From: Chlorobiota bacterium
Lineage (GTDB): Bacteria; Bacteroidota; Bacteroidia; Bacteroidales; F082
Length of the DNA stretch: 64,000 bases
Assembly (NCBI GenBank): GCA_013151215.1
Contig: JAADIS010000113.1
Coordinates: 1-64,000, forward strand
Direction of reading: 5' to 3'
The position numbers and the translations under genes were made by a program. Shown one piece after another: positions 6,475-62,452 of the stretch (position 1 is the stretch's first letter; each line of letters begins with the position of its first letter). The notes under the pieces are model-generated. The model was not told the DNA's origin, made no database searches, and saw nothing but the letters and a program-made list of their open reading frames with translations.

Positions 6475-8816
6475 AATTTATAGGAGATAGTTGCCAGGAA
6501 AGTTCTTCCCAATTGTGGATGATATGATGGAATATGTCCTTCCGGATTAGAATTGGAACCATGCTCATAAGCATCGATGTAGCCATTTCCCGTTTCCCTT
6601 CCAAGACCGTAATATTGCTCGTCAAGGATATTGTTTACAATAAACTGCAAGCTAAATTGATTAGCAATTCGATAAGTAATGACCAAGTTTCCCTTTAGGT
6701 AGGAAGGTGCATAGCCGTTTTCGTTCCGTTGCAGCCATTGATTTGTCGAGGGGGCCAGCCGCCTGCCCACATAGTTGAACCTCAAGTCAACAATAAACCT
6801 ATGTTTTAAAAAATCAATATTGATACCTGCATTTGCTTTTTTTCGTGCTATCCCTTCAATTTCATATAAAGCCAAATCGTTGGCGGACATTCCTGACAAA
6901 AAACTGTAATTGGAATAGAAACGAATCTTTTTGGTGATTTGAACAGATAATAAGAGGCTTAGGCCCGTATAATTTATTTTCGCAAGATTCTCGTAGCGTT
7001 CCAAGGAGAGCTTGGTGCTGTCCGGTACTTTACCGATGTATTGCTTTATATCAGAATAAAAAATATTCAGCTTAATCCCTATTTTGTTTTGAAGTATCAA
7101 TGAGGACAGATCCAGTTCGCCGGTGGATATTTTTTCAGGCTTTAAGCCTGGGTTCCCCCTGAACTCGTCATACAGCTCGAAAATGCCCGGCTGCCGGAAA
7201 GCGGTGCCGAACAAAAGCTTCACATTAAAGGCGGGCAAAGGTTTATAAACAACATTTAAACGCGGATTAAGAATGCTGCCGAAATAGGAATTATAATCGT
7301 AACGAAGGCCTATGGACGACTTTAAACGCTTAGTCCAGTTATAATCCCATAAACCGTATAGCGAAGCCTCCCGCTCATAATAAACCGGATAGCTCATCGG
7401 CTGGTTTAAGCCACCTCCGTTTACGGCTATGTTCCAGGAGGATGATGTACCTGAACGTAAATAATTGTATTCGCCTAAGGAAATGATGCGGATGCTCTTG
7501 CGGTTAAGGCCTGCTTTAACTCCAACCAACAGTTTGCTTTTAGTACTTATTTCGTATAAAAACTTTTCTTCAAAGTAGAATTGATATGAAAAGTTGTTGT
7601 AGCTTTTAACCAGGCCGGGAAAACGGTATAGATACTTAAAACCTGTTTTGGGCAAAATACTGGTAGTACGGTAAACCAAATTGGAATTAAGGCTGAGCCT
7701 TGGGTTGAGCTTGCTGTCGTTTTGCATAAAGATATTCATAGCGCGATAATGCCCCATGCTCTCCTTATCGGTCAAATCATATTCATAGGCCAGATAGCCA
7801 GAGGCATTACCTCTCTGATAATCAGAATAAAAAAAACCTAGCCTTGTATTCTTATACGATATATTCGACCTTATGACATAACTGTTTTTCTGTGTATTGA
7901 AACCATCGGGAATAAAAGTTCCGGCCAAGGGGTTTTGTTTGTCCTGAACATAATCCCCATTCTTGTCGTAATCGGCCAAAATAGTATCAGGATACTTATT
8001 TCCGTGAAAATAACCTCCGGGATCGTAGCTGTCAAGCCCCATATCGCCTTTAGCATGAAATTGCTGCAAGGCTATCGTAAAGTTTAGGTTCTTTTTAATA
8101 TCGGTTCCATAAAAAATCTCGTTTTTCCATCTGCTGTACGAGCCAAGCGCGGAAGAGGCATATAAACCTTTAAAATGCTTTTTGGTAATAATGTTTATCA
8201 CCCCTGTATAGGCCTGTGCGCCGTACATAACCGAACCGGGGCCCTGTACTATCTCTATTTGTTCCACATCAACCAACATATTTCCATAAGTCCATAACAA
8301 TGACCAGTTGAAACTGATGTCGTTTTGCACAACACCGTCTATCATAATCAATATTTCAGGGTTCCCCACAGACCCCAGGCCACGGTTCTTGCTGTATCCA
8401 GGATATTCACCGCCGCCATCGTTATACATCATGAAATCAAAGCCTGGGATATCCTGGCATATATCAGTTAAGGTTTGGTATCCCCTTTCCACTATCATTT
8501 GCTGCGTAATAACCTGCACATTCGCCGGTGCGTCATTATAGCTTGTACTCTTTGCCATGCCGGTGCTTATTTCAACCCGGGAAAGTTCTTCAAGCGATAA
8601 GCTGTAAACGGATTTTGTTGTGTCGATTTTTTGTGCGTATAAAAAATAAGGGTATAGGATACATGATAAGACAATCGCTTTCATGAACGAAATATTCTTT
8701 CTGATTATGATATTATTCTTTCTGTGCATTTTAATTTTAGTATCAAGAAAGATTTCAATATTTATGCGGTTTTCATGCTTGGGGCAACTATTGTCTAATA
8801 TACTTCCAATCTGCAT
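6471..8816 (-). CDS. TonB-dependent receptor (start may be internal, e.g. at MHRKNN or MKAIVL)
   Basis: Plug APANVQVITQQMIVERGYQTLTDICQDIPGFDF...VQGPGSVMYGAQAYTGVINIITKK; C-terminal barrel ...LATISYKF. Confidence 0.91.
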   Translation of the reverse strand: MQIGSILDNSCPKHENRINIEIFLDTKIKMHRKNNIIIRKNISFMKAIVLSCILYPYFLYAQKIDTTKSVYSLSLEELSRVEISTGMAKSTSYNDAPANVQVITQQMIVERGYQTLTDICQDIPGFDFMMYNDGGGEYPGYSKNRGLGSVGNPEILIMIDGVVQNDISFNWSLLWTYGNMLVDVEQIEIVQGPGSVMYGAQAYTGVINIITKKHFKGLYASSALGSYSRWKNEIFYGTDIKKNLNFTIALQQFHAKGDMGLDSYDPGGYFHGNKYPDTILADYDKNGDYVQDKQNPLAGTFIPDGFNTQKNSYVIRSNISYKNTRLGFFYSDYQRGNASGYLAYEYDLTDKESMGHYRAMNIFMQNDSKLNPRLSLNSNLVYRTTSILPKTGFKYLYRFPGLVKSYNNFSYQFYFEEKFLYEISTKSKLLVGVKAGLNRKSIRIISLGEYNYLRSGTSSSWNIAVNGGGLNQPMSYPVYYEREASLYGLWDYNWTKRLKSSIGLRYDYNSYFGSILNPRLNVVYKPLPAFNVKLLFGTAFRQPGIFELYDEFRGNPGLKPEKISTGELDLSSLILQNKIGIKLNIFYSDIKQYIGKVPDSTKLSLERYENLAKINYTGLSLLLSVQITKKIRFYSNYSFLSGMSANDLALYEIEGIARKKANAGINIDFLKHRFIVDLRFNYVGRRLAPSTNQWLQRNENGYAPSYLKGNLVITYRIANQFSLQFIVNNILDEQYYGLGRETGNGYIDAYEHGSNSNPEGHIPSYHPQLGRTFLATISYKF

Positions 8817-9051: not shown

Positions 9052-9077
9052 AAAAAAAGCCCCGCAAAAAGCGAGGC
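9052..9077 (-). terminator. Rho-independent terminator downstream of tRNA-Arg
   Basis: On the minus strand: GCCTCGC-TTTTT-GCGGGGC followed by a T-run. Confidence 0.75.
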
Positions 9078-9083
9078 GAACTG

Positions 9084-9425: not shown

Positions 9426-9983
9426 CTAGTTCAAGGTGTTCCCCACGAATATCTTTGAGTCGGCATAGCTGCGTATTTCCCCTAGCATCATCGAAATATT
9501 GCTGTCGATGCCCAAGCTTGCCGAACCGAAGGAATAAGCCGACAGGTTGAAATTTATCGGACCCCGTACTCCTTGTCCCAGGTTTGGCCTGATAGTAATG
9601 ACTACGTTAATGGCTTTCCCGGGCTTTTTCGCGGAAACCCTATACTTGTCGATCACACCCTTTACGGTAATTCCCCCAATCCCGTTTAGCCCGCCGCCAA
9701 AGCCGTTGGCAAACTGAATAACCGCATCGTTATCAGAAATATACAGGAAGTTTATTTTTGGGTCAAGCGATTGCCCATTGATGGTTTTACCGGTAAAAAC
9801 GAAATCTTTATCCTCTATTTTCTTTTTCAACAGCTGCCATTCGGCTTCTTCATTTTTTTCCTTAATGGCCTTTGCGTTTTCTCGTTCCTTTTTTCTCTGT
9901 GCCTTGCTTAGGGTAGTCTGTGCCTCAATGGTGTTCCATGCAAATGCAACCAGCAATCCGAATATTAATACTTTGATTTTCAT
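9426..9983 (-). CDS. DUF4251 family secreted protein
   Basis: Signal peptide, then KKIEDKDFVFTGKTINGQSLDP...FLYISDNDAVIQF...SYADSKIFVGNTL, typical of Bacteroidetes DUF4251. Confidence 0.75.
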   Translation of the reverse strand: MKIKVLIFGLLVAFAWNTIEAQTTLSKAQRKKERENAKAIKEKNEEAEWQLLKKKIEDKDFVFTGKTINGQSLDPKINFLYISDNDAVIQFANGFGGGLNGIGGITVKGVIDKYRVSAKKPGKAINVVITIRPNLGQGVRGPINFNLSAYSFGSASLGIDSNISMMLGEIRSYADSKIFVGNTLN

Positions 9984-9993
9984 AAGTTTATAA

Positions 9994-10737: not shown

Positions 10738-13360
10738 ATACTTTTTTATATTTAAATTTGAAATCAAAATTAAGACTTTTTCTATTCACTTCCCTCGAAA
10801 AGTATTTATACCATTCTTGCCTTATCCCCTGATCGCTTATCATCTCATTTACCGAGTCGATATCGAAACCTTCCGATGATTTCATGGCCCTTGCCAGTTT
10901 TATTTGGATATCCTTGCTTTCAGAAGCCGTTTCCCCTTGCGAATTCAATATTTGCAAATATTCGAATGCCAGGAGGAATTGATCTTTTGCGATAAAATAT
11001 TCAATACTGCTAACTGTTAATGATTTCAATTTCTGCTGTTTAACAAACTTGCGAAGCGATGGCAGGCTAAAATTATACATCCCGATGTTCCTTGAAACAT
11101 ATTCGCTTCGCAAAAGCAGGTATTTATCGATCGCATCAAAATAATTACCGCTGAACAATTGGTTTTTCATAGATGAATATTCTTGATAAAAATCTAGCAG
11201 GTATCCGTATTTATCCACGAGGCTATCTGTTTTATAGGAATCTAGCTTACAATCGCTATTATCCTCCATCAAAACATAAGAAGATTTTATTCGTTCCACT
11301 GCAACATCAAACTGTCCGGACCTGATTTTCAGTACTATGTCGTTATTATATTCGTTAAGCCTGAACTCGGCATCGAGGCAATGCCGGCCCTGCATCTTGC
11401 CGATTAGCTCGCGCATGGCCCTTTTGATCACTGGATTGTCCTGTTGTAGATATTTTGCTTGTAGATCCTCGGCATCCTTGAGAAGCGCAGCTGCCCTGTC
11501 ACCGTGCTTTGCCCAGGTTTCGAGACGGGCTTCCTCCAAAATGCTTAATATTTTCGGTTCCGAGTAAGCCCTCAATAAGATATTTAGCCTTTCCACCTCA
11601 TAGGTTAATATTTCACTTTGGATATTTTTGGCTTTCAACAGATTATCAAAGGCTTGCTCATTATTCCCCTTGTCCAATAAAATTTCACCGTTTTGCAAAA
11701 ATTCAAGGAAAACGGAATAAGAAATTTCATCAAGCTCCTGTTTGTCGTAAATAATATCAGGGTTGCCGGCAATATATTTCTTGAGATCGAACAATTGAGA
11801 ATAGGAATCATCAAGATTTGAAGTTTTCATTTTTGAGCTAATATCCTCAATCTTAAGCCTGTAGATCCCATTACAGGCCAGCACCTTAAACCGATCAAGC
11901 TCATCATCCTTTTCAAGATTTTTTTCATCAGATATGTCCATTGCATTTTTTATCAGCAAATCGGCCTCGTAAAAAGATTTCTGCCCGAGCAAAACTTTTA
12001 TCCTGCGTTTTTGCGCTTCCACATAAATAGAGAACGGGCTTACAGCTATCCCGGTCTCAACAAACATATCTTTGTTCTTGCGATAAACCTCCTCTGCCTC
12101 CCGGTAATAGTTCTGCGCAAATTTCAACTTTCCGCTCTGAAGGGCTTTGTCCGATACCTTGAGAAACGATTCTATCATGCCGTTCAGAGTGGAATAGGCG
12201 GTCTTGGTATATAATTCAGATTCCTGCAGATCGAATCGGGTTTGAAGGAGCTTGGCATTCTTCAATAGTGCCAAAGCCATTATGTTCCTGGACTTGAGAA
12301 AATATATGTTCGCAAGCTCGACAAAACCCTTATAAAGCAATTGGGGCACGATAATGTTTTCGCCATAGGCGTAAGCATCATAATAGTCTGATATAAAGTT
12401 TATTATCCTCAGGTCAGACATATTGTCCAAAACAATCATCTGCCTGTAGGCAGAAACCATATATGGTTGCAACTTAAGCGACTCTTGGTAATAGTTTTCC
12501 GAAACACCTATTAGCTTTTTGACATATAATGATTTATCTTCTAGAAAACCTCTTTTCAATTCCCTTTCCAATGTTTGCCGCGACAAAGTGCTCCAACGTT
12601 TTTCCAGTCTTTTGAAAGCAGAATATTTCTGTTTGAAACCTTCAGGGTCCAGTTTTGAGAGATGTAAATTGTCCTCAAAGTCCAGCTTGCCCAATATCAC
12701 GCCCAATCTCGAAGCTTCCTGCCAACTAATGAAAACCCCTGAAGCGCCCTGCTTGGAAGCCCTGCCCTGCTTAACGAATTTTTCATTTAATGTGCCCAGA
12801 ATCCGGGAATAACCATAATAATCGTTGACCAACTTGACAAGATCGTTGAATTTATGATAATCGTTTTGCGAATATTCCACCCCGGCAATTTCGGCATCTA
12901 CCACAAGGCCTGCATCGGAAAAGATACGTTGTTTGGTTTTCAAGATCGTCAGCAAACCATTATTTCCCATAGATATTTTCCCGGAATAGATTATTTTCCC
13001 GGCTTTTATAAGTTCAAGCTTGACTGCATAAGCCGATGCTTGCAAAAGACTGTCAACACTAAACCCGCGATATTCATTATCCCCTTTAATCGATATTATC
13101 AACGGCCTGGCCTCAATTTGGACTTTACCGCTGCCAAGCAGTTTGATGCTTGTATTTATCTCATACTCAACTGATACTTCAGTCCTGGAGAGATCCTTGT
13201 TATTTCCCAGAGCTAATAGTGAGAGGATTTTCCTGCCTGGGGAGTCCTCCGGCAAGCCGGATTTGTTCAAGACAAATACCTGGGCTTGATCTTGTTGGGC
13301 AGCGGCCGTGCCCCACAGAAAAAACAAAACAACAAATAATTTGCGATAAATAAACCTCAC
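10730..13360 (-). CDS. Large secreted, mostly helical (TPR-like) protein of unknown function
   Basis: 876 aa single ORF with signal peptide; repeated Tyr/Ala-rich amphipathic helices; no recognised catalytic motif. Confidence 0.7.
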   Translation of the reverse strand: MRFIYRKLFVVLFFLWGTAAAQQDQAQVFVLNKSGLPEDSPGRKILSLLALGNNKDLSRTEVSVEYEINTSIKLLGSGKVQIEARPLIISIKGDNEYRGFSVDSLLQASAYAVKLELIKAGKIIYSGKISMGNNGLLTILKTKQRIFSDAGLVVDAEIAGVEYSQNDYHKFNDLVKLVNDYYGYSRILGTLNEKFVKQGRASKQGASGVFISWQEASRLGVILGKLDFEDNLHLSKLDPEGFKQKYSAFKRLEKRWSTLSRQTLERELKRGFLEDKSLYVKKLIGVSENYYQESLKLQPYMVSAYRQMIVLDNMSDLRIINFISDYYDAYAYGENIIVPQLLYKGFVELANIYFLKSRNIMALALLKNAKLLQTRFDLQESELYTKTAYSTLNGMIESFLKVSDKALQSGKLKFAQNYYREAEEVYRKNKDMFVETGIAVSPFSIYVEAQKRRIKVLLGQKSFYEADLLIKNAMDISDEKNLEKDDELDRFKVLACNGIYRLKIEDISSKMKTSNLDDSYSQLFDLKKYIAGNPDIIYDKQELDEISYSVFLEFLQNGEILLDKGNNEQAFDNLLKAKNIQSEILTYEVERLNILLRAYSEPKILSILEEARLETWAKHGDRAAALLKDAEDLQAKYLQQDNPVIKRAMRELIGKMQGRHCLDAEFRLNEYNNDIVLKIRSGQFDVAVERIKSSYVLMEDNSDCKLDSYKTDSLVDKYGYLLDFYQEYSSMKNQLFSGNYFDAIDKYLLLRSEYVSRNIGMYNFSLPSLRKFVKQQKLKSLTVSSIEYFIAKDQFLLAFEYLQILNSQGETASESKDIQIKLARAMKSSEGFDIDSVNEMISDQGIRQEWYKYFSREVNRKSLNFDFKFKYKKVYE

Positions 13361-13449
13361 ATCAAATAATTGAATGGCAAATTTATCAAATTTGAGCTTT
13401 GAACGTAAACTTTCCGTATGTTGCCTGCTTTAATATTAGATATGAAAGT

Positions 13450-13532
13450 ACCCAAGATAAGACTCGAACTTACACGACCTTGCGGTCACTGGTCCCTGAA
13501 ACCAGCGCGTCTACCAATTTCGCCACTTGGGC
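13450..13532 (-). tRNA. tRNA-Leu(CAG)
   Basis: Minus strand GCCCAAGTGGCGAAATTGGTAGACGCGCTGGTTTCAGGGACCAG...GTTCGAGTC...CTTGGGTA; long variable arm; anticodon CAG. Confidence 0.92.
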
Positions 13533-13548
13533 ATTTCAATCTATTTTG

Positions 13549-13632
13549 TGCCCAGAACAAGAATCGAACTTGCACTCCCTAACGGGAACATGGCCCTCAA
13601 CCATGCGCGTCTACCATTTCCGCCATCTGGGC
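13549..13632 (-). tRNA. tRNA-Leu(GAG)
   Basis: Minus strand GCCCAGATGGCGGAAATGGTAGACGCGCATGGTTGAGGGCCATG...GTTCGATTC...TCTGGGCA; anticodon GAG. Confidence 0.92.
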
Positions 13633-13806
13633 TTTTGCCTTTACAAGGATTATTCCCCTGTAAAAGCGGCTGCAAAAATAACACATATTTCCAATTTGCA
13701 AATAAAAATTATAATTAAAATCCCAATGCTGCTCTATTTAATAAAAAACAGCATTGTTTATCGTCATTTGCAATAAATTTTTAATTTTACGTGAAAAAAC
13801 AAAAAT

Positions 13807-45585: not shown

Positions 45586-48500
45586 ATGTTAAACAAGACT
45601 ATTAAATTTTTCTTAGAGAACAAACTGGTAACATTCATACTACTGGCTGTGTTCATTGGTTGGGGGATAGTAAACTCCCCTTTTAACTGGGATACCGGCT
45701 TCTTGCCCAACGATCCCGTTCCGGTTGACGCCATCCCAGACATTGGCGAAAACCAACAGATAGTTTATACTGAATGGGCAGGAAGGTCTCCACAAGACAT
45801 AGAAGACCAAATCTCCTACCCTCTTACAACGGCCCTATTGGGCTTACCTGGCGTAAAGACCATCAGGAGCAATTCAATATTCGGGTTATCAAGTATTTAC
45901 ATAATATTTGACGAGGACATTGAATTTTATTGGGGGAGGACGAGGATACTTGAGAAGTTGAACTCGCTGCCTGCAGGCACCTTACCGCCGGGGGTCTCCC
46001 CTGCCCTAGGGCCGGATGCCACCGCCCTGGGTCAAATATTCTGGTACACACTCGAAGGACGGGACAAGGACGGAAATCCCGCCGGAGGCTGGGACCCTCA
46101 TGAATTAAGGACTATACAGGATTTCTATGTCGGATATTCCTTAACTTCCGCTAAAGGTATAGCAGAAGTTGCCTCCATAGGTGGTTTCGTGAAGGAATAT
46201 CAAGTAGATATCGACCCAAATGCCATGAAAGCCCATGGCGTAAACATCGCCCAGATAATGTCGGCAGTAAAAAACAGCAACCTCGACATTGGCGCCAGGA
46301 CTATCGAGTTCAACCGCGCCGAATATCTGGTCAGGGCATTGGGTTATATCAAAAGCCTCGAAGATCTCGAGCAGAGCGTTGTTGCCGTCAACAATAACAT
46401 ACCTATAAGGATAAAGGACGTAGCCAAGGTTAATTTCGGCCCTGCTACCCGTCGGGGAGGGCTCGACAAGGGAGGCTCCGAAGCTGTTGGGGGCGTCGTT
46501 GTTGCACGTTATGGTGCAAACCCTCTTGAAGCAATAAACAACATTAAGGAAAAAATTGCCGAGATAGCGCCTGGGCTACCATCCAAAACCCTTGAGGACG
46601 GAACGGTTTCAAAAGTTACGATAGTACCTTTTTACGATCGTACGGGACTTATTAAAGAAACGCTGGGGACTCTGGAGGAGGCTTTATCTTTGGAAATACT
46701 AGTAAGTATTTTAGTAGTTATTGTGTTAGTTCTAAATTTACGAGCCTCTTTCCTGATTTCCAGCCTGTTGCCCATAGGCGTACTGATGACCTTCATAATT
46801 ATGCGGCGGGCCGGGGTTGATGCGAACATAGTCGCCCTCTCGGGTATTGCCATTGCTATCGGGGTGATGGTGGATGTTGGCGTGGTGTTTACGGAGAATA
46901 TCATCCGGCATCTGGATATGGCGGAAAACCTTGGCGCCAGCGGCAAACGTTTGCTTACGATAATTTACGACGCCACCATTGAAGTTGCCAGTGCTGTAAT
47001 CACTGCTCTTTCAACAACTATCGTCAGCTTCCTACCGGTATTCGCCATGCAGGCTGCCGAAGGCAAGCTATTCCACCCACTCGCGTTCACAAAAACTTTT
47101 GCGATGCTTTCCGCATTGTTCATCGGAATTATAATAATACCCACATTGGCAAATGTTATTTTTGCCCTTCGCTTCGACAAAAAGAAAATCAGATATGTTT
47201 TCAACGGATTGTTGATAGCAGCAGGTATTGCTTTTGGCATAATTACAACAAATATTGTTGCCCTCGTTTTGGTATTGGTAGGGATAAACAACTTGTTTGA
47301 GTATCGCTGGCCGGTAAACAGAAGGAAATATGTCAACCTGATAAATATAGTGCTCACCTTAACAGTTGTAATATTCTACTTGACAAAGATTTGGATGCCT
47401 TTGGGAGCACAAAACAGTTTTGTGGCCAACTTTTTGTTCGCAATAGCCATAGTAGGAACAATATTGGGCGTGTTAATGACGATAGTTCATTTTTACCCTC
47501 AGATTTTACGTTGGTGCCTTGACCACAAATGGCAGTTCCTTAGCATTCCTATCACTGTTGTGATCTTTGGGATAGTTGTTTGGCTGGGCTTTGCTAAAGT
47601 GTTCAGGTTTATGCCCGATTTTGTTGAGGAAACCTCTTTTTGGCAGGCAGCAGACGAGAAGTTCCCGGGAATTGGCAAGGAGTTCATGCCTTCGCTCGAC
47701 GAAGGATCGTTCTTGCTCATGCCAACCACCATGCCCCACTCTGGCATACAGGAGAACATAGATGTCATTGCCTTGCTGGACAAAAAAGTAAATTCGATTC
47801 CTGAAGTGGAAAGCGTTGTCGGCAAGTGGGGACGTGTAAACTCGGCCCTCGACCCGGCACCTACCTCAATGTATGAAAACCTCATAAATTATAAGCCCGA
47901 ATTCATTGTTGATGAGGACGGTTATAGAATGAGGTTCAAGGTTGACGACGACAATGCCTTTATATTAAAGGACGGAAGCAAATACAATCCTTCCACCGAC
48001 GATTACAGGTCAATCAACAAGTCGGAGCTTATCCTTGACAAAAGAGGGGAATATTTCCGCCAATGGCGCAACAACATACATTCGCCTGACGACATCTGGA
48101 AGGAAATCATAAAGCAAGCCAGCATTCCCGGCTTGACGTCAGCACCGAAATTACAGCCCATACAGACGCGTTTGGTAATGCTCCAAACCGGAATGAGGGC
48201 GCCTATGGGCATCAAGGTATTCGGCCCGGATCTGGAAACCATTGAAAAAGTAGGCTATAAGATAGAGGGCTATCTCAAAGAAGTTGAAGGCGTGGAGCCA
48301 ATTTCCGTTTTTGCTGACAGGGTTGTTGGAAAACCATACCTCGAGATGGAGATCAACCGCAAGGCGATAGCACGCTACGGCTTGACAATAAAATATTTGC
48401 AGACCATATTGAGCGGGGCAATTGGCGGCATTAAGCTGACCTCTACCGTTGAGGGCAGGGAGAGATTCCCGGTTCGCATGCGATATGCAAGGGAGTTCCG

Positions 48501-49392
48501 CGACAATCCCGATCAGCTCAAGTCTCTTTTGATACCAACCCCGACAGGGGCGCAAATACCCCTTGGAGAACTGGTCAGCTTTAATTATGTAAGGGGGCCG
48601 CAGCTTATAAAAAGCGAGGACACATTCCTGGTTGGTTATGTTATTTTCGATAAAAAACCTGAATATGCCGAGGTTGACGTTGTTGAAAACGCCCAAAAAC
48701 TGCTTAACGAAAAAATAGCAAATGGCGAGTTCAAATTACCCGCTGGCATAAGTTACATATTTACAGGTAATTACGAAAACCAGATCAGGGCAACAAAACG
48801 GCTTATGATAGTGGTCCCTATTTCACTGATACTGATTTTCCTCATCCTTTACTTCCAATTCGGTTCGGTAACAGTATCGTTGATGTCGTTCTCAGGAATC
48901 CTGGTCGCCTTTTCGGGCGGGTTTATCATGCTCTGGCTTTATGGCCAACCGTGGTTTATGAACTTCGATGTTGCCGGCGTTAACATTCACAAACTTTTCC
49001 AGATGGGGACAATAAACCTCAGTGTGGCGGTGTGGGTAGGTTTCATCGCGCTCTTCGGGATCGCGACCGATGACGGCGTCATCGTTGGGACTTACCTCAA
49101 GCAGGTATTCGACAAAAACCAACCCGACAGCGTTGAAGGCGTTAGGAAATCGGTCCTGGAAGCAGGCTCGAAAAGGGTAAGGCCTGCCATGATGACGGCA
49201 GCCACAACGATTATTGCCCTAATCCCTGTTTTAACTTCCACAGGAAAAGGTTCCGATATAATGGTTCCTATGGCAATTCCATCTTTTGGCGGAATGCTCC
49301 TACAGGTTATGACAATGTTCGTGGTTCCTGTTTTCTATTCCATGTGGCAAGAAGGCAGAGTAAAACGTAGTATTAAAATGAAAAAAGCATAG
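45586..49392 (+). CDS. cusA: Heavy-metal (Cu/Ag-type) RND efflux transporter, CusA/CzcA family
   Basis: 1268 aa; DVGENQQ-like DAIPDIGENQQIVYTEWAGRSPQDIEDQISYPLTTALLGLPGVKTIRS; GVMVDVGVVFTENIIRHL; FGIATDDGVIVGTYL. Confidence 0.93.
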   Translation: MLNKTIKFFLENKLVTFILLAVFIGWGIVNSPFNWDTGFLPNDPVPVDAIPDIGENQQIVYTEWAGRSPQDIEDQISYPLTTALLGLPGVKTIRSNSIFGLSSIYIIFDEDIEFYWGRTRILEKLNSLPAGTLPPGVSPALGPDATALGQIFWYTLEGRDKDGNPAGGWDPHELRTIQDFYVGYSLTSAKGIAEVASIGGFVKEYQVDIDPNAMKAHGVNIAQIMSAVKNSNLDIGARTIEFNRAEYLVRALGYIKSLEDLEQSVVAVNNNIPIRIKDVAKVNFGPATRRGGLDKGGSEAVGGVVVARYGANPLEAINNIKEKIAEIAPGLPSKTLEDGTVSKVTIVPFYDRTGLIKETLGTLEEALSLEILVSILVVIVLVLNLRASFLISSLLPIGVLMTFIIMRRAGVDANIVALSGIAIAIGVMVDVGVVFTENIIRHLDMAENLGASGKRLLTIIYDATIEVASAVITALSTTIVSFLPVFAMQAAEGKLFHPLAFTKTFAMLSALFIGIIIIPTLANVIFALRFDKKKIRYVFNGLLIAAGIAFGIITTNIVALVLVLVGINNLFEYRWPVNRRKYVNLINIVLTLTVVIFYLTKIWMPLGAQNSFVANFLFAIAIVGTILGVLMTIVHFYPQILRWCLDHKWQFLSIPITVVIFGIVVWLGFAKVFRFMPDFVEETSFWQAADEKFPGIGKEFMPSLDEGSFLLMPTTMPHSGIQENIDVIALLDKKVNSIPEVESVVGKWGRVNSALDPAPTSMYENLINYKPEFIVDEDGYRMRFKVDDDNAFILKDGSKYNPSTDDYRSINKSELILDKRGEYFRQWRNNIHSPDDIWKEIIKQASIPGLTSAPKLQPIQTRLVMLQTGMRAPMGIKVFGPDLETIEKVGYKIEGYLKEVEGVEPISVFADRVVGKPYLEMEINRKAIARYGLTIKYLQTILSGAIGGIKLTSTVEGRERFPVRMRYAREFRDNPDQLKSLLIPTPTGAQIPLGELVSFNYVRGPQLIKSEDTFLVGYVIFDKKPEYAEVDVVENAQKLLNEKIANGEFKLPAGISYIFTGNYENQIRATKRLMIVVPISLILIFLILYFQFGSVTVSLMSFSGILVAFSGGFIMLWLYGQPWFMNFDVAGVNIHKLFQMGTINLSVAVWVGFIALFGIATDDGVIVGTYLKQVFDKNQPDSVEGVRKSVLEAGSKRVRPAMMTAATTIIALIPVLTSTGKGSDIMVPMAIPSFGGMLLQVMTMFVVPVFYSMWQEGRVKRSIKMKKA

Positions 49393-49395
49393 ATC

Positions 49396-50625
49396 ATGAA
49401 AAAGTTATTAATAATAATTATAATAGGTATGCTGATTTCATCCGCCCTAAGGGCACAGAATGAGTTGAACTCATATCTGGAAACAGCAGCCAGGAACAAT
49501 CCAGGATTAAAGGTCAGGTTTAACGAATATATGGCCGCACTGGAAAAAGCACCCCAGGCCAAGGCACTCCCTGACCCTCAAATTGCATTCGCTTATTTTA
49601 TCAGTCCGGTGGAAACAAGGGTAGGGCCGCAACAATTCAAGATATCGGCCTCGCAAATGTTCCCTTGGTTCGGAACCTTGAAATCGGCGGAAAATGCAAG
49701 TATCCAAGAAGCCAAAGCGAAATATGAGCTTTTTGAGGAAACAAAATCGGAATTGTTCAATAATGTAAAAAACAATTATTACGATTTGTATTTCAACAAC
49801 AAAGCGATTAAGATAACTCTTGATAATTTAGACATCCTGAGCTCGTTCAAGAAATTGGCGTTAATTAAAGTGGAGGCAGGTCTTGTATCGGCCGTTGACG
49901 ATTATCGGATCGAAATGGAGATATACGACCTCGAAAACTCCCTGGCTTTACTGAGGGACAAGGATTACGTTCTCAGGATAGCCTTCAATAATTTGCTGAA
50001 CACCGAGGGCAATCCTGAAATTATCGTGCCAGGTGATTTATGGACTGACGATATCGCCTACGAAAAAACGGCAGCACTCGACAGCATCCGCGCCCTTAAC
50101 CACCAGCTCCTGAACATCGACTTCCAGCAGCAGGCCCTTGTTTATAAAAAGGAATGGGCTACAAAAAAGGGGAATCCTTCGTTCAAGATAGGCTTTGACT
50201 ATGCCTTTGTAGGAAAAGGCGAAAACAATCTGTCGGGCAAAGATGCCTTCATCTTCCCTTCAATAGGCATAACGCTTCCGTTGTACCGCTCGAAATACAA
50301 GGCAATGGTAAACGAAGTTGTTTATCTTGAATCGGCCAAAGCCGACGAGAAGATAAATAAGATCAATGTCCTGGAAACCGTTTTTGAGGAGGCATGGAAG
50401 GACTATCGTGATGCCAACAGAAGAATAGTGCTGTATAACAGGCAGTTGGAACTTGCCAACATTTCGTTAAAGCTTCTTGAAACAGATTATTCCACAGGAA
50501 ATAAGAACTTCGAGGAAATATTGCGCATGGACCGAAAAGTCCTGAAATACAATCTCGAACTGGAGAAAGCGAAAGCCGACAAGCAGGCATCCATATCATT
50601 CATAACATATTTAATGGGAAAATAA
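49396..50625 (+). CDS. TolC-family outer membrane efflux protein
   Basis: Signal peptide; ELNSYLETAARNNPGLKVRFNEYMAALEKAPQAKALPDPQIAFAYF; helical hairpin; between cusA- and cusB-like genes. Confidence 0.9.
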   Translation: MKKLLIIIIIGMLISSALRAQNELNSYLETAARNNPGLKVRFNEYMAALEKAPQAKALPDPQIAFAYFISPVETRVGPQQFKISASQMFPWFGTLKSAENASIQEAKAKYELFEETKSELFNNVKNNYYDLYFNNKAIKITLDNLDILSSFKKLALIKVEAGLVSAVDDYRIEMEIYDLENSLALLRDKDYVLRIAFNNLLNTEGNPEIIVPGDLWTDDIAYEKTAALDSIRALNHQLLNIDFQQQALVYKKEWATKKGNPSFKIGFDYAFVGKGENNLSGKDAFIFPSIGITLPLYRSKYKAMVNEVVYLESAKADEKINKINVLETVFEEAWKDYRDANRRIVLYNRQLELANISLKLLETDYSTGNKNFEEILRMDRKVLKYNLELEKAKADKQASISFITYLMGK

Positions 50626-50636: not shown

Positions 50637-52481
50637 ATGAAAAAAATAATCAATAATATAAAAGAAAATTACAAACTCGTTTTAGGGGTTTTAGTTATAG
50701 GAATATTCCTGGGTTGGATATTTTTTCACCAAGGCGGTGAAAATGCGATCCCTCAAACCCAGACGGAAAACGACGGGCATGACCATGCCAAGGAAGCCGG
50801 GACGATATGGACCTGCTCCATGCACCCGCAAATAAAGAAGGACAAACCCGGCAAATGCCCGATATGCTCCATGGATCTAATTCCGGTGCAGGATCATTCG
50901 GGAACTACTGACGAGGAATTGGATGCTGAAGCCATCACATTATCGGATGCAGCAGCAAGGCTAGCTCAAATAGAAACGATGAAAGTTGTTCGGGGCAAGC
51001 CAACCAAAGAAGTTTACCTTCAAGGCAAAGTACATGCCGACGAAAGGAATATCGCCGAGCTTACAGCCCGTTTTGGAGGCCGTATCGAGAAACTCTTCGT
51101 CAATTTCACCGGGCAAAATGTCAGAAAGGGCGAAAAGCTTGCGACAATATACTCCCCTGGCTTGGTAACAGCTCAAAGGGAACTTCTTGAGGCAATCTCG
51201 TTCAAGGAAACCCGGCCGGCGCTATACCGCGCTTCCAGGGCAAAACTTAAGCTTTGGGACCTCACCGACGGCCAGATCGACGAAATAGAGCAAAGCGGCG
51301 ACCCGATAGTCTATTTCGACGTGCTCTCACCCATAAGCGGAACGGTAATGAAACGCCATGTGGCCCTGGGCGATTATGTGAAGGAGGGCAGCGCCCTGTT
51401 CCAGGTAATTGACTTGAAAAAGGTCTGGGTCATGTTCGACGCATATGAGAGCGACCTGCCATGGATAAAACTGAATGACAAGGTGAACTTCAGCGTCCAG
51501 GCCTTGCCGGGCAAAAGCTTCAGCGCACGAGTTACATATATCGACCCATTCCTGAACGCCAGGACGCGAGTAGCAAAAGTAAGGGTTGAAATGCAGAACA
51601 AGAAGATGGAGCTGAAACCGGAGATGTTCGCAAACGGAATTGTTGATTCGGACCTCGCCGACAACAGCAGCGAGATCCTTATCCCCAAATCGTCGATATT
51701 GTGGACAGGAAAGCGCGCCATAGTATATGTAAAATCACCGAACAGCAAAGCCACTTCTTTCAAATACCGCGAAATAGTACTGGGCCCGGAGGCAGGCAAC
51801 TTTTATGTTGTCGCCAAAGGCTTGATGGAAGGCGAGACCATAGCGACCAACGGCGTGTTTAAAATTGATGCCGCATCGCAGCTACAAGGGCTTCCGAGCA
51901 TGATGAACCCCGAGGGCGGAGCAGGTTCCACTCCTCACGATATGTCGAAAATGGATATGGGCGGCGGCAAAAAAGCAAAGACAGCGAAAAAAAGCAAGTC
52001 CATGAGCAAAATGGAAAAGCCCGCCAAGACAGCTGTTGAATTCAAGACTCAGCTAAAGGCAGTTTATGAGGCCTATATTAAAATGAAGGACGCATTTGTT
52101 GCCAGCGACGGCAAAACTGCCGCAGCAATGGCAGCCAAAGTCAAAAAAGCCATCGGCAATACCGATATGGCCTTGCTGAAAGGCGATGCGCACATAATGT
52201 GGATGGGACAGATGACTAAGCTGAACTCCTTGCTTGAGGAAATTATAAATGAAGGAAATATTGAAAAACAACGATTCATATTTTCTAAATTCAATCCGGT
52301 TTTCGCCGAAAGCATTAAAAATTTCGGCTTAAACAACACAACTGCATATTATCAGTTTTGCCCCATGGCCAATGATCGTGGCGGAGCATATTGGATTAGC
52401 GAGAGCAAGGAAATAAAAAACCCCTACTTTGGCGACAAGATGCTGGGTTGCGGCGAGACCAAAGAAACATTCAATAATTAA
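50637..52481 (+). CDS. cusB: CusB-like periplasmic adaptor with HMBD domain and C-terminal DUF3347
   Basis: WTCSMHPQIKKDKPGKCPICSMDLIP (heavy-metal binding domain); HlyD-like ELTARFGGRIEKLFVNFTGQNVRKGEKLATIYSPGL; C-term FCPMANDRGGAYWISESKEIKNPYFGDKMLGCGE. Confidence 0.92.
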   Translation: MKKIINNIKENYKLVLGVLVIGIFLGWIFFHQGGENAIPQTQTENDGHDHAKEAGTIWTCSMHPQIKKDKPGKCPICSMDLIPVQDHSGTTDEELDAEAITLSDAAARLAQIETMKVVRGKPTKEVYLQGKVHADERNIAELTARFGGRIEKLFVNFTGQNVRKGEKLATIYSPGLVTAQRELLEAISFKETRPALYRASRAKLKLWDLTDGQIDEIEQSGDPIVYFDVLSPISGTVMKRHVALGDYVKEGSALFQVIDLKKVWVMFDAYESDLPWIKLNDKVNFSVQALPGKSFSARVTYIDPFLNARTRVAKVRVEMQNKKMELKPEMFANGIVDSDLADNSSEILIPKSSILWTGKRAIVYVKSPNSKATSFKYREIVLGPEAGNFYVVAKGLMEGETIATNGVFKIDAASQLQGLPSMMNPEGGAGSTPHDMSKMDMGGGKKAKTAKKSKSMSKMEKPAKTAVEFKTQLKAVYEAYIKMKDAFVASDGKTAAAMAAKVKKAIGNTDMALLKGDAHIMWMGQMTKLNSLLEEIINEGNIEKQRFIFSKFNPVFAESIKNFGLNNTTAYYQFCPMANDRGGAYWISESKEIKNPYFGDKMLGCGETKETFNN

Positions 52482-52559: not shown

Positions 52560-53114
52560 ATGTCAGAAAATACCTTACATATCAAAAATATGGTTTGCGA
52601 CAGATGCATTAGGGTTGTAAAAGAAGACCTTAGCAAGCTGGGATTGAAAATTTATTCGGTTGAGCTGGGAAAAGCTGAAGTTGACCGGCAGCCTGATGAA
52701 GAAATGTTGCAAAAGATCAAAGTAACGCTCGAAAAAGAAGGATTTGAGCTTATGAGCGATAAAAAGACAAGAATAGTTTCTGCAATAAAAACCGAGATAA
52801 TAAAGCTTACCCGAGACGAAAGCAACGATCAGAAGCTTAAATTCTCGGAATACATTTCCTCCAAGCTAAACCACGACTACTCATATATAAGCAATCTGTT
52901 CTCGGAACTGGAAGGCACTACCATCGAGAAATTTGCCATCAACCAAAAAATAGAATATATAAAAGAATTGATTATCTACGATGAACTGTCGCTGAACGAG
53001 ATTTCCTATAAACTAGGTTATAGCAGCGTTCAGTATTTGTCGAGCCAGTTTAAAAAGGTTACCGGCCTAACACCTACCGATTTTAAAAGACTTTATAATC
53101 GGAGACATAAATAA
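52560..53114 (+). CDS. Fused HMA-like metal-binding domain + AraC-type HTH regulator
   Basis: N-term LHIKNMVCDRCIRVVKEDLSKLGLKIYSVELGKAEV (CxxC); C-term LSLNEISYKLGYSSVQYLSSQFKKVTGLTPTDFKRL (AraC HTH). Confidence 0.88.
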   Translation: MSENTLHIKNMVCDRCIRVVKEDLSKLGLKIYSVELGKAEVDRQPDEEMLQKIKVTLEKEGFELMSDKKTRIVSAIKTEIIKLTRDESNDQKLKFSEYISSKLNHDYSYISNLFSELEGTTIEKFAINQKIEYIKELIIYDELSLNEISYKLGYSSVQYLSSQFKKVTGLTPTDFKRLYNRRHK

Positions 53115-54258: not shown

Positions 54259-54573
54259 ATGACACAGCCAAGAACAGTAAACTCGACATTCACAGCAGAG
54301 AAGTTTTTAGATAACGAATTGGTTATCAAGTTGCTTAAGGCACTCAACAGCATTAGGGGCATTACTAACATACAGGCCTCGCACAATCAATTATACGTTG
54401 AGTACTACGACCGGATGCTTGACGAAAGCTATATTAAAAGCACTCTGGAGAATTTAAACTTCCCGTTTGAAAAAACTGATGTTCAAAAGGGCTTCTTCGG
54501 ACGGATGATAGATAAAATTGCCGATGACAATAAAACGGAGTTCGGCAGCAGCGGACCCCATTGCTGTGGTTAA
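54259..54573 (+). CDS. HMA-fold-like protein lacking CxxC, with C-terminal HCCG
   Basis: LLKALNSIRGITNIQASHNQLYVEYYDRMLDESYIKSTLENLNFPFEKT matches the HMA beta-alpha-beta pattern; tail SSGPHCCG. Confidence 0.6.
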   Translation: MTQPRTVNSTFTAEKFLDNELVIKLLKALNSIRGITNIQASHNQLYVEYYDRMLDESYIKSTLENLNFPFEKTDVQKGFFGRMIDKIADDNKTEFGSSGPHCCG

Positions 54574-54585: not shown

Positions 54586-54765
54586 ATGATTTATCTTAAG
54601 ACATTTCTGTTAGTATTGGTATTGATAATCACCCTAAGCAGCATTTTTGCCTTAACCAGCAAACATCGCGATAAAGGCAAGGATGAATCAAGGGGTGGGA
54701 ACAAAGATGAAGATGCCTGCGCCGAATGCGGCATAAAGGAGTTTATCAAGTGCGACAAGCTTTAG
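54586..54765 (+). CDS. 59-aa membrane-anchored Cys-rich small protein (not in ORF track)
   Basis: Hand translation MIYLKTFLLVLVLIITLSSIFALTSKHRDKGKDESRGGNKDEDACAECGIKEFIKCDKL; 13-bp gap after the previous stop. Confidence 0.55.
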   Translation: MIYLKTFLLVLVLIITLSSIFALTSKHRDKGKDESRGGNKDEDACAECGIKEFIKCDKL

Positions 54766-54820: not shown

Positions 54821-55162
54821 ATGAAACTTATAAAAGCATATATCCGCCATCGTAAAGCAGCCGATGTATTCAATGAGCTGCAAAAAGCAGGGTTCTGCTG
54901 CATGACCTTCGTGGATTGCGAGGGCACAGGGCAATATTCCGACAAGGAAAAGCAGCACATCAGCACAAAATATCCTTTCACGGATTCATACCGGGTTATA
55001 AAACTTGAGATGCTCATCGCAAAAGAACATGTTGAAGCTGTTGTGAAGCTTATTAAAAAGAGCGCAAAAACAGGATATCGCGGCGATGGGCTTATAATCG
55101 TCTCGCCTGTTGACGAGGTATATAAGGTAAGAACGGACGAAACCGGGATACTATCAATTTAA
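54821..55162 (+). CDS. PII-like signalling protein (nitrogen regulator family, metal-cluster-associated type)
   Basis: MKLIKAYIRHRKAADVFNELQKAGFCCMTFVDCEGTG...KTGYRGDGLIIVSPVDEVYKVRTDETG (B-loop/C-loop-like PII motifs). Confidence 0.85.
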   Translation: MKLIKAYIRHRKAADVFNELQKAGFCCMTFVDCEGTGQYSDKEKQHISTKYPFTDSYRVIKLEMLIAKEHVEAVVKLIKKSAKTGYRGDGLIIVSPVDEVYKVRTDETGILSI

Positions 55163-55208: not shown

Positions 55209-55847
55209 ATGAAACTAAGGACAATATTGATTATGGCATTTATAACTTCCTGTTCGTACTACTCCGTAACTTTAAGCCAGGAAAACAATCCCGGCTACAG
55301 TAGCATAATGGAAGTTACTGACTCATCGTCCGCTAAGCAGGCGGTCATCCATGAGCAGATAGAAGCGGGAATGCTTTTGTTAAGAACCCCTTACGAACTA
55401 GACGACGACTCGCAAGGGCAGATGAAAGCCGTTTTAAGGTATTATTTCTGGCTTGAGGATGCAATGTTCAACAAGAACGCCAACGATATCGCGCTTGCTG
55501 CCGGACTGATGAAGTGCAAGACCAAAAATGTCTCGGATAAGAACATTTGGGGAAAGGGCTATACTGCCTGGGACAATCACAAGGCAGCCCTTTTAAAAAA
55601 TCTGAACCTTATCATAGAAGAAAAACCAATTGCTGAAAAGCAAGCCCATTTCAATAAGATATCGGAAACTATTTATTGCATGATAAAAAACTTCAACATA
55701 ATTGATAATAGGGCTTATGCTGCTTTTTGCCCCATAGCGCTAAAAAACAAGGGCGCGATATGGGTTGGGGACGGCCGAGTGCTGAGAAACCCGTATCTGG
55801 GGAATAAAATGCCCGATTGCGGCGAAATAATCGAATTGTTCAAATAA
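55209..55847 (+). CDS. DUF3347 domain protein
   Basis: AAFCPIALKNKGAIWVGDGRVLRNPYLGNKMPDCGEIIELF matches the DUF3347 tail of the CusB-like adaptor. Confidence 0.8.
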   Translation: MKLRTILIMAFITSCSYYSVTLSQENNPGYSSIMEVTDSSSAKQAVIHEQIEAGMLLLRTPYELDDDSQGQMKAVLRYYFWLEDAMFNKNANDIALAAGLMKCKTKNVSDKNIWGKGYTAWDNHKAALLKNLNLIIEEKPIAEKQAHFNKISETIYCMIKNFNIIDNRAYAAFCPIALKNKGAIWVGDGRVLRNPYLGNKMPDCGEIIELFK

Positions 55848-58543: not shown

Positions 58544-61024
58544 ATGAATAAAGAAAAAGAAAATACCGGGAATGGGCATAAAGCAGACTGCTGTTCAGGC
58601 CGCACAAAAGGTTCATCAGCAGATTTATATGTTTGCCCAATGGGCTGCGACGGCTCTAAGAAATACGAGAGCGAAGGCAATTGCCCTGTTTGCAACATGA
58701 AGCTTGTGCCTTTTAAGGAACACGAGCACGAAAAAAACGGCCATAGCGAGCATATGAGCAAGCATGACCACTCGCACGACCATCAGCATATAGCTGCAAA
58801 AGGAAGTTTTTACTGCCCTATGCGCTGCGAGGGCGACAAAACTTATGAGAAGGCCGGGGATTGCCCTGATTGCGGGATGCCCCTTGTAAAAGAAGCAGGC
58901 ACACAACCTAAAGGCACTGTTTACACCTGCTCCATGCATCCGGAAATCCAAAAAACAAAGCCCGGGAGCTGTCCTATCTGCGGAATGGATTTAATACCTC
59001 AATCAGGGGATATTGAAAGCGAAGAGCATAAGGCATATAAAAGCATGCTGAAGAGATTTTGGGTAGCCCTTGCTCTTTCGTTACCTGTTTTTATTATTGC
59101 CATGTCCGAGTTTTTCCCATTTCTAAACTTGGACAGTATCGCGTCGGGCAAGACTTTTGCCTGGATACAATTTGCCCTCGCCAGCCCCGTAATATTTTAC
59201 TCAAGCTGGGACTTCTTTATAAGAGGCTGGAACTCAGTGCGCAGATGGTCGCCAAATATGTGGACTTTGATCTCGTTAGGCGTGGGAGCAGCATATATCT
59301 TTAGTGTTATCGGACTATTGATGCCCGATCTTTTCCCTGCCCAGTTCAAGGATGCGTCAAACAATGTCCACCTGTATTTTGAGGCCGCTGCAATTATCCT
59401 GACGCTTGTTCTCTTCGGCCAGGTGCTTGAGCTTGGGGCCCACAGCAAGACGAATTCAGCAATAAAGGCACTGTTGAACATGGTTCCTCCTGTTGCCCGC
59501 CTATTTAAAAACGGCGAAGAAACCGAGATTGCACTGGAAGAAGTTTCCGTCGGCGATATTTTAATTGTCAAACCCGGAGAGAAGATACCCGTTGACGGGA
59601 AACTTGTATTCGGGACGGCGATTATAGACGAAAGCATGATCACGGGCGAACCGGTTCCGGCAGAAAAGGAAATAGGTAGCCCGGTTACCGGCGGTACCAT
59701 CAACGGTAAAACGGTATTCCGCATGGAAGCATTGAAAGTTGGTTCCGACACCTTGCTGTCGCAGATAATACAAATGGTAAACGACGCAAGCAGGTCCAGG
59801 GCGCCGATACAAAAACTGGCCGATGTCGTAGCAAAGTACTTTGTTCAAATCGTAATAGGCATTTCCTTATCCACTTTCTTCATCTGGTACATTTGGGGGC
59901 CGGAACCGGCATTGGTCTATGCATTTGTGAACGCGGTATCGGTATTGATAATAGCCTGCCCTTGCGCACTGGGACTGGCAACACCTATGTCCATCATGGT
60001 AGGCACGGGGCGGATGGCTCAATCGGGGGTATTGGTCAAAGACGCCACAGCCATCGAGTCCATGAACAAGGTCAACAGCCTTATCGTTGACAAGACCGGG
60101 ACCCTCACCCAGGGAAAACCCAGCTTGAATACTTTTAAGTCCTTTGGCGATTTATCGGACGAGGACATATTGCAGTTCTCCGCCTCCCTTGATGCCAACA
60201 GCGAACATCCCGTTGCTGAGGCAATAGTAAAAGGAGCCAAAAAGAAAAATGTCAGCCTTTTTAAAGTAGATGATTTCGAGTCGGTTACGGGACAAGGCGT
60301 AAAAGCAAGGCACAAAAACAAACTTATAGCACTTGGGAACATGCGCCTGGTGGAAACCCTGAAAGCAGATATGCCCAAAAAAGATGTCGAACTGGCCGAA
60401 AAATGGCAATCGAAAGGCCAAACGGTCATGTTCCTTATCATCGACAAGAAAGTGGAGGGCATGATAAGCGTTGCAGATGCGATAAAAGAAACATCGGCAA
60501 AAGCCGTCAAAGACCTTCAAAAACTTGGATTAAAGGTAATTATGCTCACTGGCGACAATAAGTTCACTGCCAAGGCCGTTGCCGACGAGCTGAACCTGGA
60601 TGGATTTGAAGCCGATTGCCTGCCCCAGGACAAATACAACAAAGTAAAGGAATTACAAGATAAAGGCATGATTGTTGCGATGGCTGGTGACGGCATCAAC
60701 GACGCCCCTGCCCTGGAGCAGGCCAATGTTGGCATAGCAATGGGAACAGGTACTGATATCGCAATGCAAAGCGCAGAGATAACTTTGGTTAAAGGCGATT
60801 TGACTGGCATTGTAAGAGCGAAGGAGCTAAGCGGCAAGGTAATGCGCAACATTAAGGAAAACTTGTTCTTTGCTTTTATTTACAACGCACTTGGCGTACC
60901 TGTGGCAGCCGGTATATTATTCCCGTTCTTCGGAATACTCCTAAGCCCGATAATAGCCGCCGCCGCAATGAGCTTCAGCTCGGTTTCCGTAATCAGCAAT
61001 GCTTTACGGTTGAGGGCCAAATAA
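58544..61024 (+). CDS. copA: Copper-translocating P1B-type ATPase with three N-terminal HMBD repeats
   Basis: DKTGTLTQG, ACPCALGLATP (CPC), TGEPVP, MLTGDN, GDGINDAPAL; N-term YVCPMGCDG..CPVCNMKLVP, FYCPMRCEG..CPDCGMPLV, YTCSMHPEI..CPICGMDLIP. Confidence 0.95.
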   Translation: MNKEKENTGNGHKADCCSGRTKGSSADLYVCPMGCDGSKKYESEGNCPVCNMKLVPFKEHEHEKNGHSEHMSKHDHSHDHQHIAAKGSFYCPMRCEGDKTYEKAGDCPDCGMPLVKEAGTQPKGTVYTCSMHPEIQKTKPGSCPICGMDLIPQSGDIESEEHKAYKSMLKRFWVALALSLPVFIIAMSEFFPFLNLDSIASGKTFAWIQFALASPVIFYSSWDFFIRGWNSVRRWSPNMWTLISLGVGAAYIFSVIGLLMPDLFPAQFKDASNNVHLYFEAAAIILTLVLFGQVLELGAHSKTNSAIKALLNMVPPVARLFKNGEETEIALEEVSVGDILIVKPGEKIPVDGKLVFGTAIIDESMITGEPVPAEKEIGSPVTGGTINGKTVFRMEALKVGSDTLLSQIIQMVNDASRSRAPIQKLADVVAKYFVQIVIGISLSTFFIWYIWGPEPALVYAFVNAVSVLIIACPCALGLATPMSIMVGTGRMAQSGVLVKDATAIESMNKVNSLIVDKTGTLTQGKPSLNTFKSFGDLSDEDILQFSASLDANSEHPVAEAIVKGAKKKNVSLFKVDDFESVTGQGVKARHKNKLIALGNMRLVETLKADMPKKDVELAEKWQSKGQTVMFLIIDKKVEGMISVADAIKETSAKAVKDLQKLGLKVIMLTGDNKFTAKAVADELNLDGFEADCLPQDKYNKVKELQDKGMIVAMAGDGINDAPALEQANVGIAMGTGTDIAMQSAEITLVKGDLTGIVRAKELSGKVMRNIKENLFFAFIYNALGVPVAAGILFPFFGILLSPIIAAAAMSFSSVSVISNALRLRAK

Positions 61025-61056: not shown

Positions 61057-61443
61057 ATGAAGTATTTTATAAACAAGGAGCTAAAAACAGGATTCGAGGA
61101 ATCCATCTCCAAGGTAAAAGATTCACTGATGAATCAAGGGTTCGGTGTTATAACCGAAGTCATGATGCACGAGAAATTAAAAGAAAAGCTGAATGTTGAC
61201 TACAATAAGTATGTAATACTTGGCGCATGCAACCCTGCTCTTGCATACGAGGCGCTAAAGCAGGAAGTCAACATTGGGACAATGCTCCCCTGCAATGTAA
61301 TAGTTCGCGAAAAAGAGGAAAACGTGATGGAGGTTGTTGCCATCGACCCCGTGCCTACAATGGACGTTGTAGAAAATGACGAACTAAAGAAAATCGCCAT
61401 AAAGGTTAAGGAAAAGCTCGAGCTGGCGCTGAGCGAATTATAG
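61057..61443 (+). CDS. DUF302 family protein
   Basis: GFEESISKVKDSLMNQGFGVITEVMMHEKLKEKL...YVILGACNPALAYEALKQEVNIGTMLPCNVIVRE. Confidence 0.9.
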   Translation: MKYFINKELKTGFEESISKVKDSLMNQGFGVITEVMMHEKLKEKLNVDYNKYVILGACNPALAYEALKQEVNIGTMLPCNVIVREKEENVMEVVAIDPVPTMDVVENDELKKIAIKVKEKLELALSEL

Positions 61444-62005: not shown

Positions 62006-62452
62006 ATGAAAAAATTATCAGTTCTATTCGCATCCTTAATGATGCTGACAATCACATCTTTCGCAGGTGTAAAAACAGAAAAACTAAAAGTTTACGGAAA
62101 ATGCGGCATGTGCGAAAGCCGTATTGAAACAGCGGTAAAAGCCGTTGATGGCGTTAGCACCGCCGATTGGGACAAAGACACCAAGATGCTCGAGGTTACT
62201 TTCGACGAATCAAAAACGGATATCCATAAGATCAACAAGGCGGTTAACGCAGTTGGTCATGATACCGAAATGATGCGTGCCGAGGACAAGGCTTACGAGA
62301 ACCTTCCCGGCTGCTGCAAATACGACCGCGCCCCTATGAAGGGAATGAAAATGAACCACGACCAGTCCGACGCCGGTTCCTCATGCAAGTCAAAAGGCAT
62401 GGAGATGGGCACAAAGTCATGCTGCAACGGAAAAACCGATGCCAAGCATTAA
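62006..62452 (+). CDS. Exported HMA-domain metal-binding protein with Cys/Met-rich tail
   Basis: Signal peptide; EKLKVYGKCGMCESRIETAVKAVDGVSTADWDKDTKMLEVTFD; tail CKSKGMEMGTKSCCNGKTDAKH. Confidence 0.9.
   Translation: MKKLSVLFASLMMLTITSFAGVKTEKLKVYGKCGMCESRIETAVKAVDGVSTADWDKDTKMLEVTFDESKTDIHKINKAVNAVGHDTEMMRAEDKAYENLPGCCKYDRAPMKGMKMNHDQSDAGSSCKSKGMEMGTKSCCNGKTDAKH

Follow-up and report, generated by a model that had tools for sequence, protein, structure and literature searches.

A PII-family protein within a copper-efflux gene cluster of Bacteroidales and its metal-linked relatives

Control of metal efflux is usually described as transcriptional. A group of PII proteins linked to metal transport was reportedly named PII-NG by Sant'Anna et al. 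in 2009. An example of PII-NG is GSU2134, encoded with czcABC in Geobacter sulfurreducens; the PII-NG/czcABC operon is induced by cobalt, and metal sensing has been suggested (PMC7726332). Known PIIs often act on transporters, and a metal-linked PII group is mentioned in the same review (PMC4285133). CutA1 is a trimeric copper-binding protein with a PII-like fold (PMC7726332). We searched the open-access literature and found the name PII-NG in PMC7726332 only, with no report of a copper-linked Bacteroidota PII branch or of the T-loop motif described here. PDB sequence searches returned nitrogen PIIs and no evident metal-linked member. Metal-linked PII has been known since 2009; the copper (Cus/CopA) branch of Bacteroidota, with its own T-loop motif, appears to be new.

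We analyzed a 64,000-nucleotide stretch of DNA (the window) that carries a PII gene among copper-efflux genes. The window PII shares with GlnB/GlnK the PII fold, the length, T29, GDG, R103 and the linkage to a membrane transporter gene. It differs from them in lacking the 2-oxoglutarate/Mg residues, a uridylylation-type T-loop (YRGAEY) and linkage to amtB/glnA, and in falling outside their clade. It falls on one side of the tree with the czc-linked Pseudomonadota PIIs (100/99), which fit the published PII-NG; with PII-NG it shares the linkage to heavy-metal RND genes, the absence of classical PII patterns and the loss of K90, Q39 and K58. Unlike PII-NG, it has a Cus/CopA rather than a Czc context, belongs to Bacteroidota and carries its own T-loop motif and Cys26/27/33; it has also retained G87-D88-G89 and the basic character of position 103, both of which are largely missing from the czc-linked Pseudomonadota sequences. 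CutA1 is similar in its PII-like architecture and copper connection but is a different sequence family, whereas the window PII matches PF00543 and keeps PII nucleotide residues.

The PII gene and its copper cluster

We found an intact open reading frame of 113 codons with an ATG start, encoding a 113-aa PII-family protein. The protein matched PF00543 (P-II) over residues 1-107 (E 2.7e-17; 63.4 bits, cut-off 25) as well as 41 distinct PDB PII sequences, and aligned over its whole length with GlnK structures. An AlphaFold2 prediction made for the monomer (34 relatives in the alignment) had the PII fold, with a mean pLDDT of 86.8 and ~63 in the T-loop. All 50 PDB fold matches listed for this model were PII/GlnK chains, the PII-NrtBCD structure among them (PDB 8wm7). 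The motifs quoted in an earlier sequence-only reading, GFCCMTFVDCEGTG (Cys26, Cys27 and Cys33) and KTGYRGDGLIIVSPVDEVYKVRTDETG, were both present, and the cysteines sat near the beginning and the centre of the second strand. Close pairs of the gene family gave dN/dS values of 0.02-0.12. This purifying selection shows that the PII gene is maintained and, together with intact homologues, ruled out a decaying gene.

All genes with recognizable functions between 45586 and 62452 lay on the + strand, in the order CusA, outer-membrane factor, CusB, HMA-like/AraC-type regulator, small proteins, PII, DUF3347, cytochrome-like proteins, CopA, DUF302 and HMA protein. The main features were:

45586..49392, + strand: CusA-type heavy-metal RND pump (TIGR00914; best PDB match E. 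coli CusA, 620 bits vs 338 for ZneA)
49396..50625, + strand: outer-membrane factor of the RND system (assigned from its place within the cus cluster and its conservation alongside CusA/CusB)
50637..52481, + strand: CusB-like adaptor, its C-terminal part like the DUF3347 protein
52560..53114, + strand: weak HMA-like domain at the N-terminus (its score under the Pfam cut-off), joined to an AraC-type DNA-binding domain
54259..54573, + strand: 104-aa protein with a C-terminal metal-binding tail (NF040898, LDCC motif; 31.1 bits vs cut-off 30), a conserved neighbour
54586..54765, + strand: 59-aa protein with one predicted membrane helix and a Cys motif (CAECGIKEFIKC), a small conserved family
54821..55162, + strand: PII-family protein of the copper branch, 113 aa (Cys26/27/33; T-loop G-T-G-Q-Y39-S-D41-K-E-K-Q-H46-I-S48)
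55209..55847, + strand: DUF3347 protein
58544..61024, + strand: CopA-type Cu(I) P-type ATPase (TIGR01511; best PDB match LpCopA, 784 bits vs 285 for ZntA)
61057..61443, + strand: DUF302 protein, recurrent in these clusters
62006..62452, + strand: HMA-domain protein with an N-terminal signal-like sequence

We assigned the cluster to copper because CusA and CopA scored best against solved copper proteins. The HMA-like/AraC fusion is likely a metal-responsive regulator. These neighbours (CusABC/CopA), the PF00543 match and the three cysteines agreed with the sequence-only reading, which had described a Cys-containing PII-like protein inside a heavy-metal efflux cluster. It had also reported that amtB and glnA are absent nearby, and the AmtB and glutamine-synthetase matches of the genome were indeed on other contigs.

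The gaps flanking the PII gene were 56 and 47 bases. Near the gene, sigma-70-like sites occurred at chance level, and searches for terminator-like sites and for a promoter pattern of the Bacteroidota type found neither. Judged by shared orientation and short gaps, the cluster may be co-transcribed with the PII gene. The DUF3347 protein is similar to the C-terminal portion of CusB, as though the adaptor domain also occurred free-standing. The window CusA has 1268 aa and carries, relative to E. coli CusA, a membrane-rich insert of >100 aa at about residues 525-695. We rejected a tie between this insert and the PII; equally long CusA proteins were common without a clade-A PII (the window clade, defined below), and the length is common in Bacteroidota CusA.

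Tree placement, ligand pocket and T-loop

A scan of 85,000 genomes gave 62 related loci, mostly from Prolixibacteraceae, Marinilabiliaceae and other Bacteroidales, with others from Balneolota and a few deep lineages. We built a tree of 68 PII sequences, with only 113 columns, and distinguished eight groups. A is the window clade, B comes from Balneolota and C from deep lineages. D holds czc-linked Bacteroidota sequences, among them this genome's second PII and one from a Pontibacter plasmid, and E those of czc-linked Pseudomonadota. The remaining groups are GlnB/GlnK (F), GlnK of Bacteroidota (G) and NifI (H). Groups A-E fell on one side of a branch, and GlnB/GlnK and NifI on the other (100 ultrafast bootstrap / 99 SH-aLRT). 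A quick 76-sequence tree had the same split (support 99). The sequence-only reading had made its case depend on the protein not belonging to the ordinary GlnK clade; on our tree the window PII lies outside GlnB/GlnK, in a metal-transporter-linked branch apart from the nitrogen PIIs. The sequence-only reading had also pointed to PII-NG; among the PIIs found here, the window PII groups with PII-NG-like, czc-linked Pseudomonadota proteins.

Clade A was supported at 100/100. A and B together formed a branch with 25 rows (97/75), and the Balneolota group is probably the sister of the Bacteroidota clade. The branch of A-D against E had a support of 85/72, and the order among the metal-linked groups was poorly resolved. 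AU tests rejected neither a union of clade A with the Pseudomonadota PIIs only (P = 0.28) nor one with the nitrogen PIIs (P = 0.37). We therefore draw no conclusion from the group order and take the main split from its branch support.

Q39 of a canonical PII completes the coordination of Mg, K58 binds the carboxylate of 2-oxoglutarate, and K90 contacts the beta-phosphate of ATP (PMC8395244, the source also for the ligand roles of T29, G87, R101 and R103). The sequence-only reading held that the nucleotide-site hallmarks are kept. In GlnB numbering, this was true of T29, G87-D88-G89 and R103 but not of K90, Q39, K58, F92 and R101, which are replaced by Leu, Tyr, Val, Ile and Lys, respectively (Leu91, Tyr39 and Val59 for the first three in the protein's own numbering). 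We observed Lys90, Gln39 and Lys58 in 0 of 67 metal-linked sequences, where position 90 holds Met, Leu, Ile or Trp; every one also lacked the T-loop RG. In groups A-D, residue 29 is T or S, G87-D88-G89 is retained and position 103 is Arg or Lys; the copper branch has a basic side chain at 101/103. In group E, the GD pair and the basic residue at 103 are largely missing. In the window PII, the adenine and phosphate-loop residues are kept and the 2-oxoglutarate/Mg residues (Q39, K58 and K90) are gone. The loss of these three makes canonical 2-oxoglutarate sensing by metal-linked PIIs very unlikely. On the tree split and these residues together we rejected an ordinary GlnK carried in a copper island.

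Two PROSITE-like patterns, for the T-loop tyrosine and the GDGK site, were used as classical PII signatures. Both matched 37 of 37 GlnB/GlnK controls, and neither matched the window protein or any metal-linked sequence.

The T-loop of the window PII follows a pattern of its own. The expression G-x-G-x-Y-[ST]-D-x4-H-x-S matched 40 of 43 clade-A sequences (43 of 43 with small variants allowed), 10 of 10 in group B and 0 of 62 others. Tyr39, Asp41 and His46 were invariant in the copper branch (A and B; 51/51). Among 41 aligned clade-A sequences, Cys33 was present in 40, Cys26 in 35 and Cys27 in 33, and the Cys26-Cys27 pair changed ~5 times on the clade tree. In group B, Cys33 was absent and the other cysteines usually so. 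We therefore rejected the three cysteines as a universal defining feature; judged by the alignment, the firm mark of the copper branch is the T-loop motif. Because the cysteines are incompletely conserved and mostly missing in Balneolota, a thiol sensor is possible but not core.

Metal systems paired with PII lineages

We observed recurrent neighbours at the related loci: CusB, CopA, an outer-membrane factor, CusA, a SHOCT-like small protein, the 59-aa family, the LDCC protein, DUF302 and multicopper-oxidase-like proteins. AraC-type regulator genes were in the cluster at many of them. The association with metal efflux noted from the window sequence thus holds both at the locus, in its copper-efflux cluster, and across these relatives.

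To score metal pairing, we compared each locus with a single reference each for CusA, CzcA, CopA and ZntA. In clade A, the CusA reference scored highest at 20 of the 21 loci that have an RND gene, and CopA at 31 of the 32 that have a P-type ATPase; both exceptions were contigs also carrying a Czc/Znt set. Group B gave CusA in 10/10 and CopA in 9/9. In groups D and E, CzcA was best in 8/8, and the ATPase was mixed (ZntA best in 5/7). The PIIs of clade A and Balneolota are linked to CusA/CopA genes. The clade-A PII gene was usually several genes distant from cusA. In groups D and E and at one C locus, the PII gene directly followed RND genes, with a 4-base overlap with the pump gene in two plasmid loci.

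The window's genome carries a second metal-linked PII (contig G000:C47, locus L133):

7727..8053, minus strand: second metal-linked PII, within a czcA-czcB-PII-zntA operon (5633-13737)

This protein was 44% identical to the window PII. Its pump was closer to ZneA (684 vs 570 bits), and its ATPase to ZntA (411 vs 286-318). One genome therefore holds two PIIs with two metal systems, the window copy with CusA/CopA and the other with a ZneA/CzcA-like pump and a ZntA-like ATPase. The two share the PII fold, RND pump and P-type ATPase neighbours and the loss of K90, Q39 and K58; the second differs in its Czc/Znt context, in having no Cys and in a T-loop without the Y-D-H motif. They were the only PIIs in this draft genome (estimated 98.6% complete), which gave no GlnB/GlnK match. 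An AmtB-type ammonium transporter is encoded at G000:C4:8740-9717 (L136) in the same genome.

We searched a 198-genome sample of the window's class and found no clade-A PII beyond the window genome. Full-length CusA of at least 55% identity occurred in 26 other genomes of the sample, all without a clade-A PII. These data make the PII an optional accessory of the copper system with a patchy distribution.

Proposed role in copper export

This PII has shifted from nitrogen control to copper-export clusters, where it probably tunes a copper pump. We tentatively favour, at slightly less than even chance, a specific form of this reading, in which the window PII is a PII homologue dedicated to copper export that docks on a copper exporter and is tuned by nucleotide and Cu(I). 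The protein would form the usual PII trimer in the cytosol and would bind adenine nucleotide (the ADP/ATP ratio or a related nucleotide) without 2-oxoglutarate. Its altered T-loops would dock on the cytoplasmic face of the exporter and adjust copper export to cell energy. In the Bacteroidota clade, Cu(I) bound by Cys26/27/33, and possibly by Asp41/His46, may be a second input; the sequence-only reading had likewise proposed a coupling of nucleotide and thiol/metal state to control of the pump or of a small membrane protein. With K90, the ATP beta-phosphate contact, lost, nucleotide affinity could be low.

Trimeric CusA is the first candidate partner, with CopA and the adjoining small membrane protein as alternatives. 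We prefer CusA because groups A and B have the T-loop motif, CusA and CopA in common but not the 59-aa protein, and because the PII gene directly follows the RND genes in D and E and overlaps the pump gene in the two plasmid loci. RND pumps are trimers, as is AmtB, and this threefold symmetry would fit a PII trimer as in GlnK-AmtB. Against docking on the pump, CusA is common without PII, so the pump does not need it; the clade-A gene usually lies several genes from cusA; and the cysteines are incompletely conserved.

CutA-like proteins have been proposed as metal buffers, chaperones or sensors. The window PII might likewise serve mainly to bind Cu(I)/Ag(I) in the cytosol; Cys26-Cys27 and Cys33 near the intersubunit cleft would take the metal, and the nucleotide pocket would be only structural. 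We consider this unlikely. The frequency of the cysteines in clade A, the copper context throughout and the Cys-free, Zn-linked paralog of the genome are consistent with such a protein, but the Cys26-Cys27 pair is variable, most Balneolota copper PIIs lack all three cysteines, and T29, E62, G35, G37 and G87-D88-G89 are conserved at least as well as the cysteines.

A relay of nucleotide/metal state to the 59-aa membrane protein or the HMA-AraC regulator, instead of the pump, is about as improbable. The 59-aa family, whose tail ends in C-x2-C-x-[IL]-[KR]-[DE]-[LI]-x2-C, lay immediately upstream of the PII at 23 of the 44 clade-A loci, and another 7 had it at a different place on the locus; these counts are lower bounds, several clade-A contigs being short. 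A Pfam and NCBIfam search placed the protein in no family above its cut-off. Its status as a conserved neighbour strengthens it as a candidate partner, and the AraC-type genes of many clusters fit with nitrogen PIIs acting on regulators too. However, the family was found in no locus of groups B-E (Balneolota, czc-linked and deep-group loci), and Balneolota share the T-loop motif without it.

Carbon-related PII-like proteins have been reported with AMP or cyclic AMP. A role of this sort, with control outside metal export, would suit a site that keeps its adenine residues and has lost the gamma-phosphate/Mg/2-oxoglutarate set; the metal context that groups A, B, D and E show throughout argues against it, and we regard it as quite improbable. 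It is highly improbable that the protein is an ordinary nitrogen PII replacing a missing GlnK and carried along in the copper island, a reading that the PF00543 match and a genome with AmtB and no GlnB/GlnK would allow, given the 100/99 split, the loss of Q39, K58, K90 and the T-loop RG in every metal-linked sequence, the recurrent copper context and the stronger PF00543 matches, several of them GlnK-type, that 7 of 7 checked genomes with a related metal-linked PII also hold.

The residue table, the T-loop motif and the copper/zinc-type pair in one genome give concrete predictions for small soluble proteins: 2-oxoglutarate binding absent, nucleotide binding kept and a lineage-specific pump partner. 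More broadly, docking on the pump may be one case of a wider pattern, which we hold to be conceivable but doubtful. PIIs would have split into single-metal lineages, one for Cu (CusA/CopA, a Y-D-H T-loop, thiols in Bacteroidota) and others for Zn/Cd/Co (Czc/Znt), which occur side by side in one genome. Through T-loop docking, these lineages would gate threefold-symmetric efflux pumps according to adenine nucleotides and the metal itself. If so, metal export would be subject to an energy check at the post-translational level.

In our metal pairing, PII lineage and gene context are confounded. On a mobilizable plasmid of Pontibacter actiniarum, a group-D PII (L113:7001-7333) lies next to CopA, an exception to the pairing. 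The lineage-metal match is therefore imperfect, and this copy is evidence for metal PIIs travelling on plasmids. Plasmid matches in Acinetobacter, Sinorhizobium and Haladaptatus were set aside as nitrogen or methylamine-type PIIs. A Chlorobiota-labelled contig (L033) carries a clade-A PII and a czc-type PII together, with CusA/CzcA-type pump matches.
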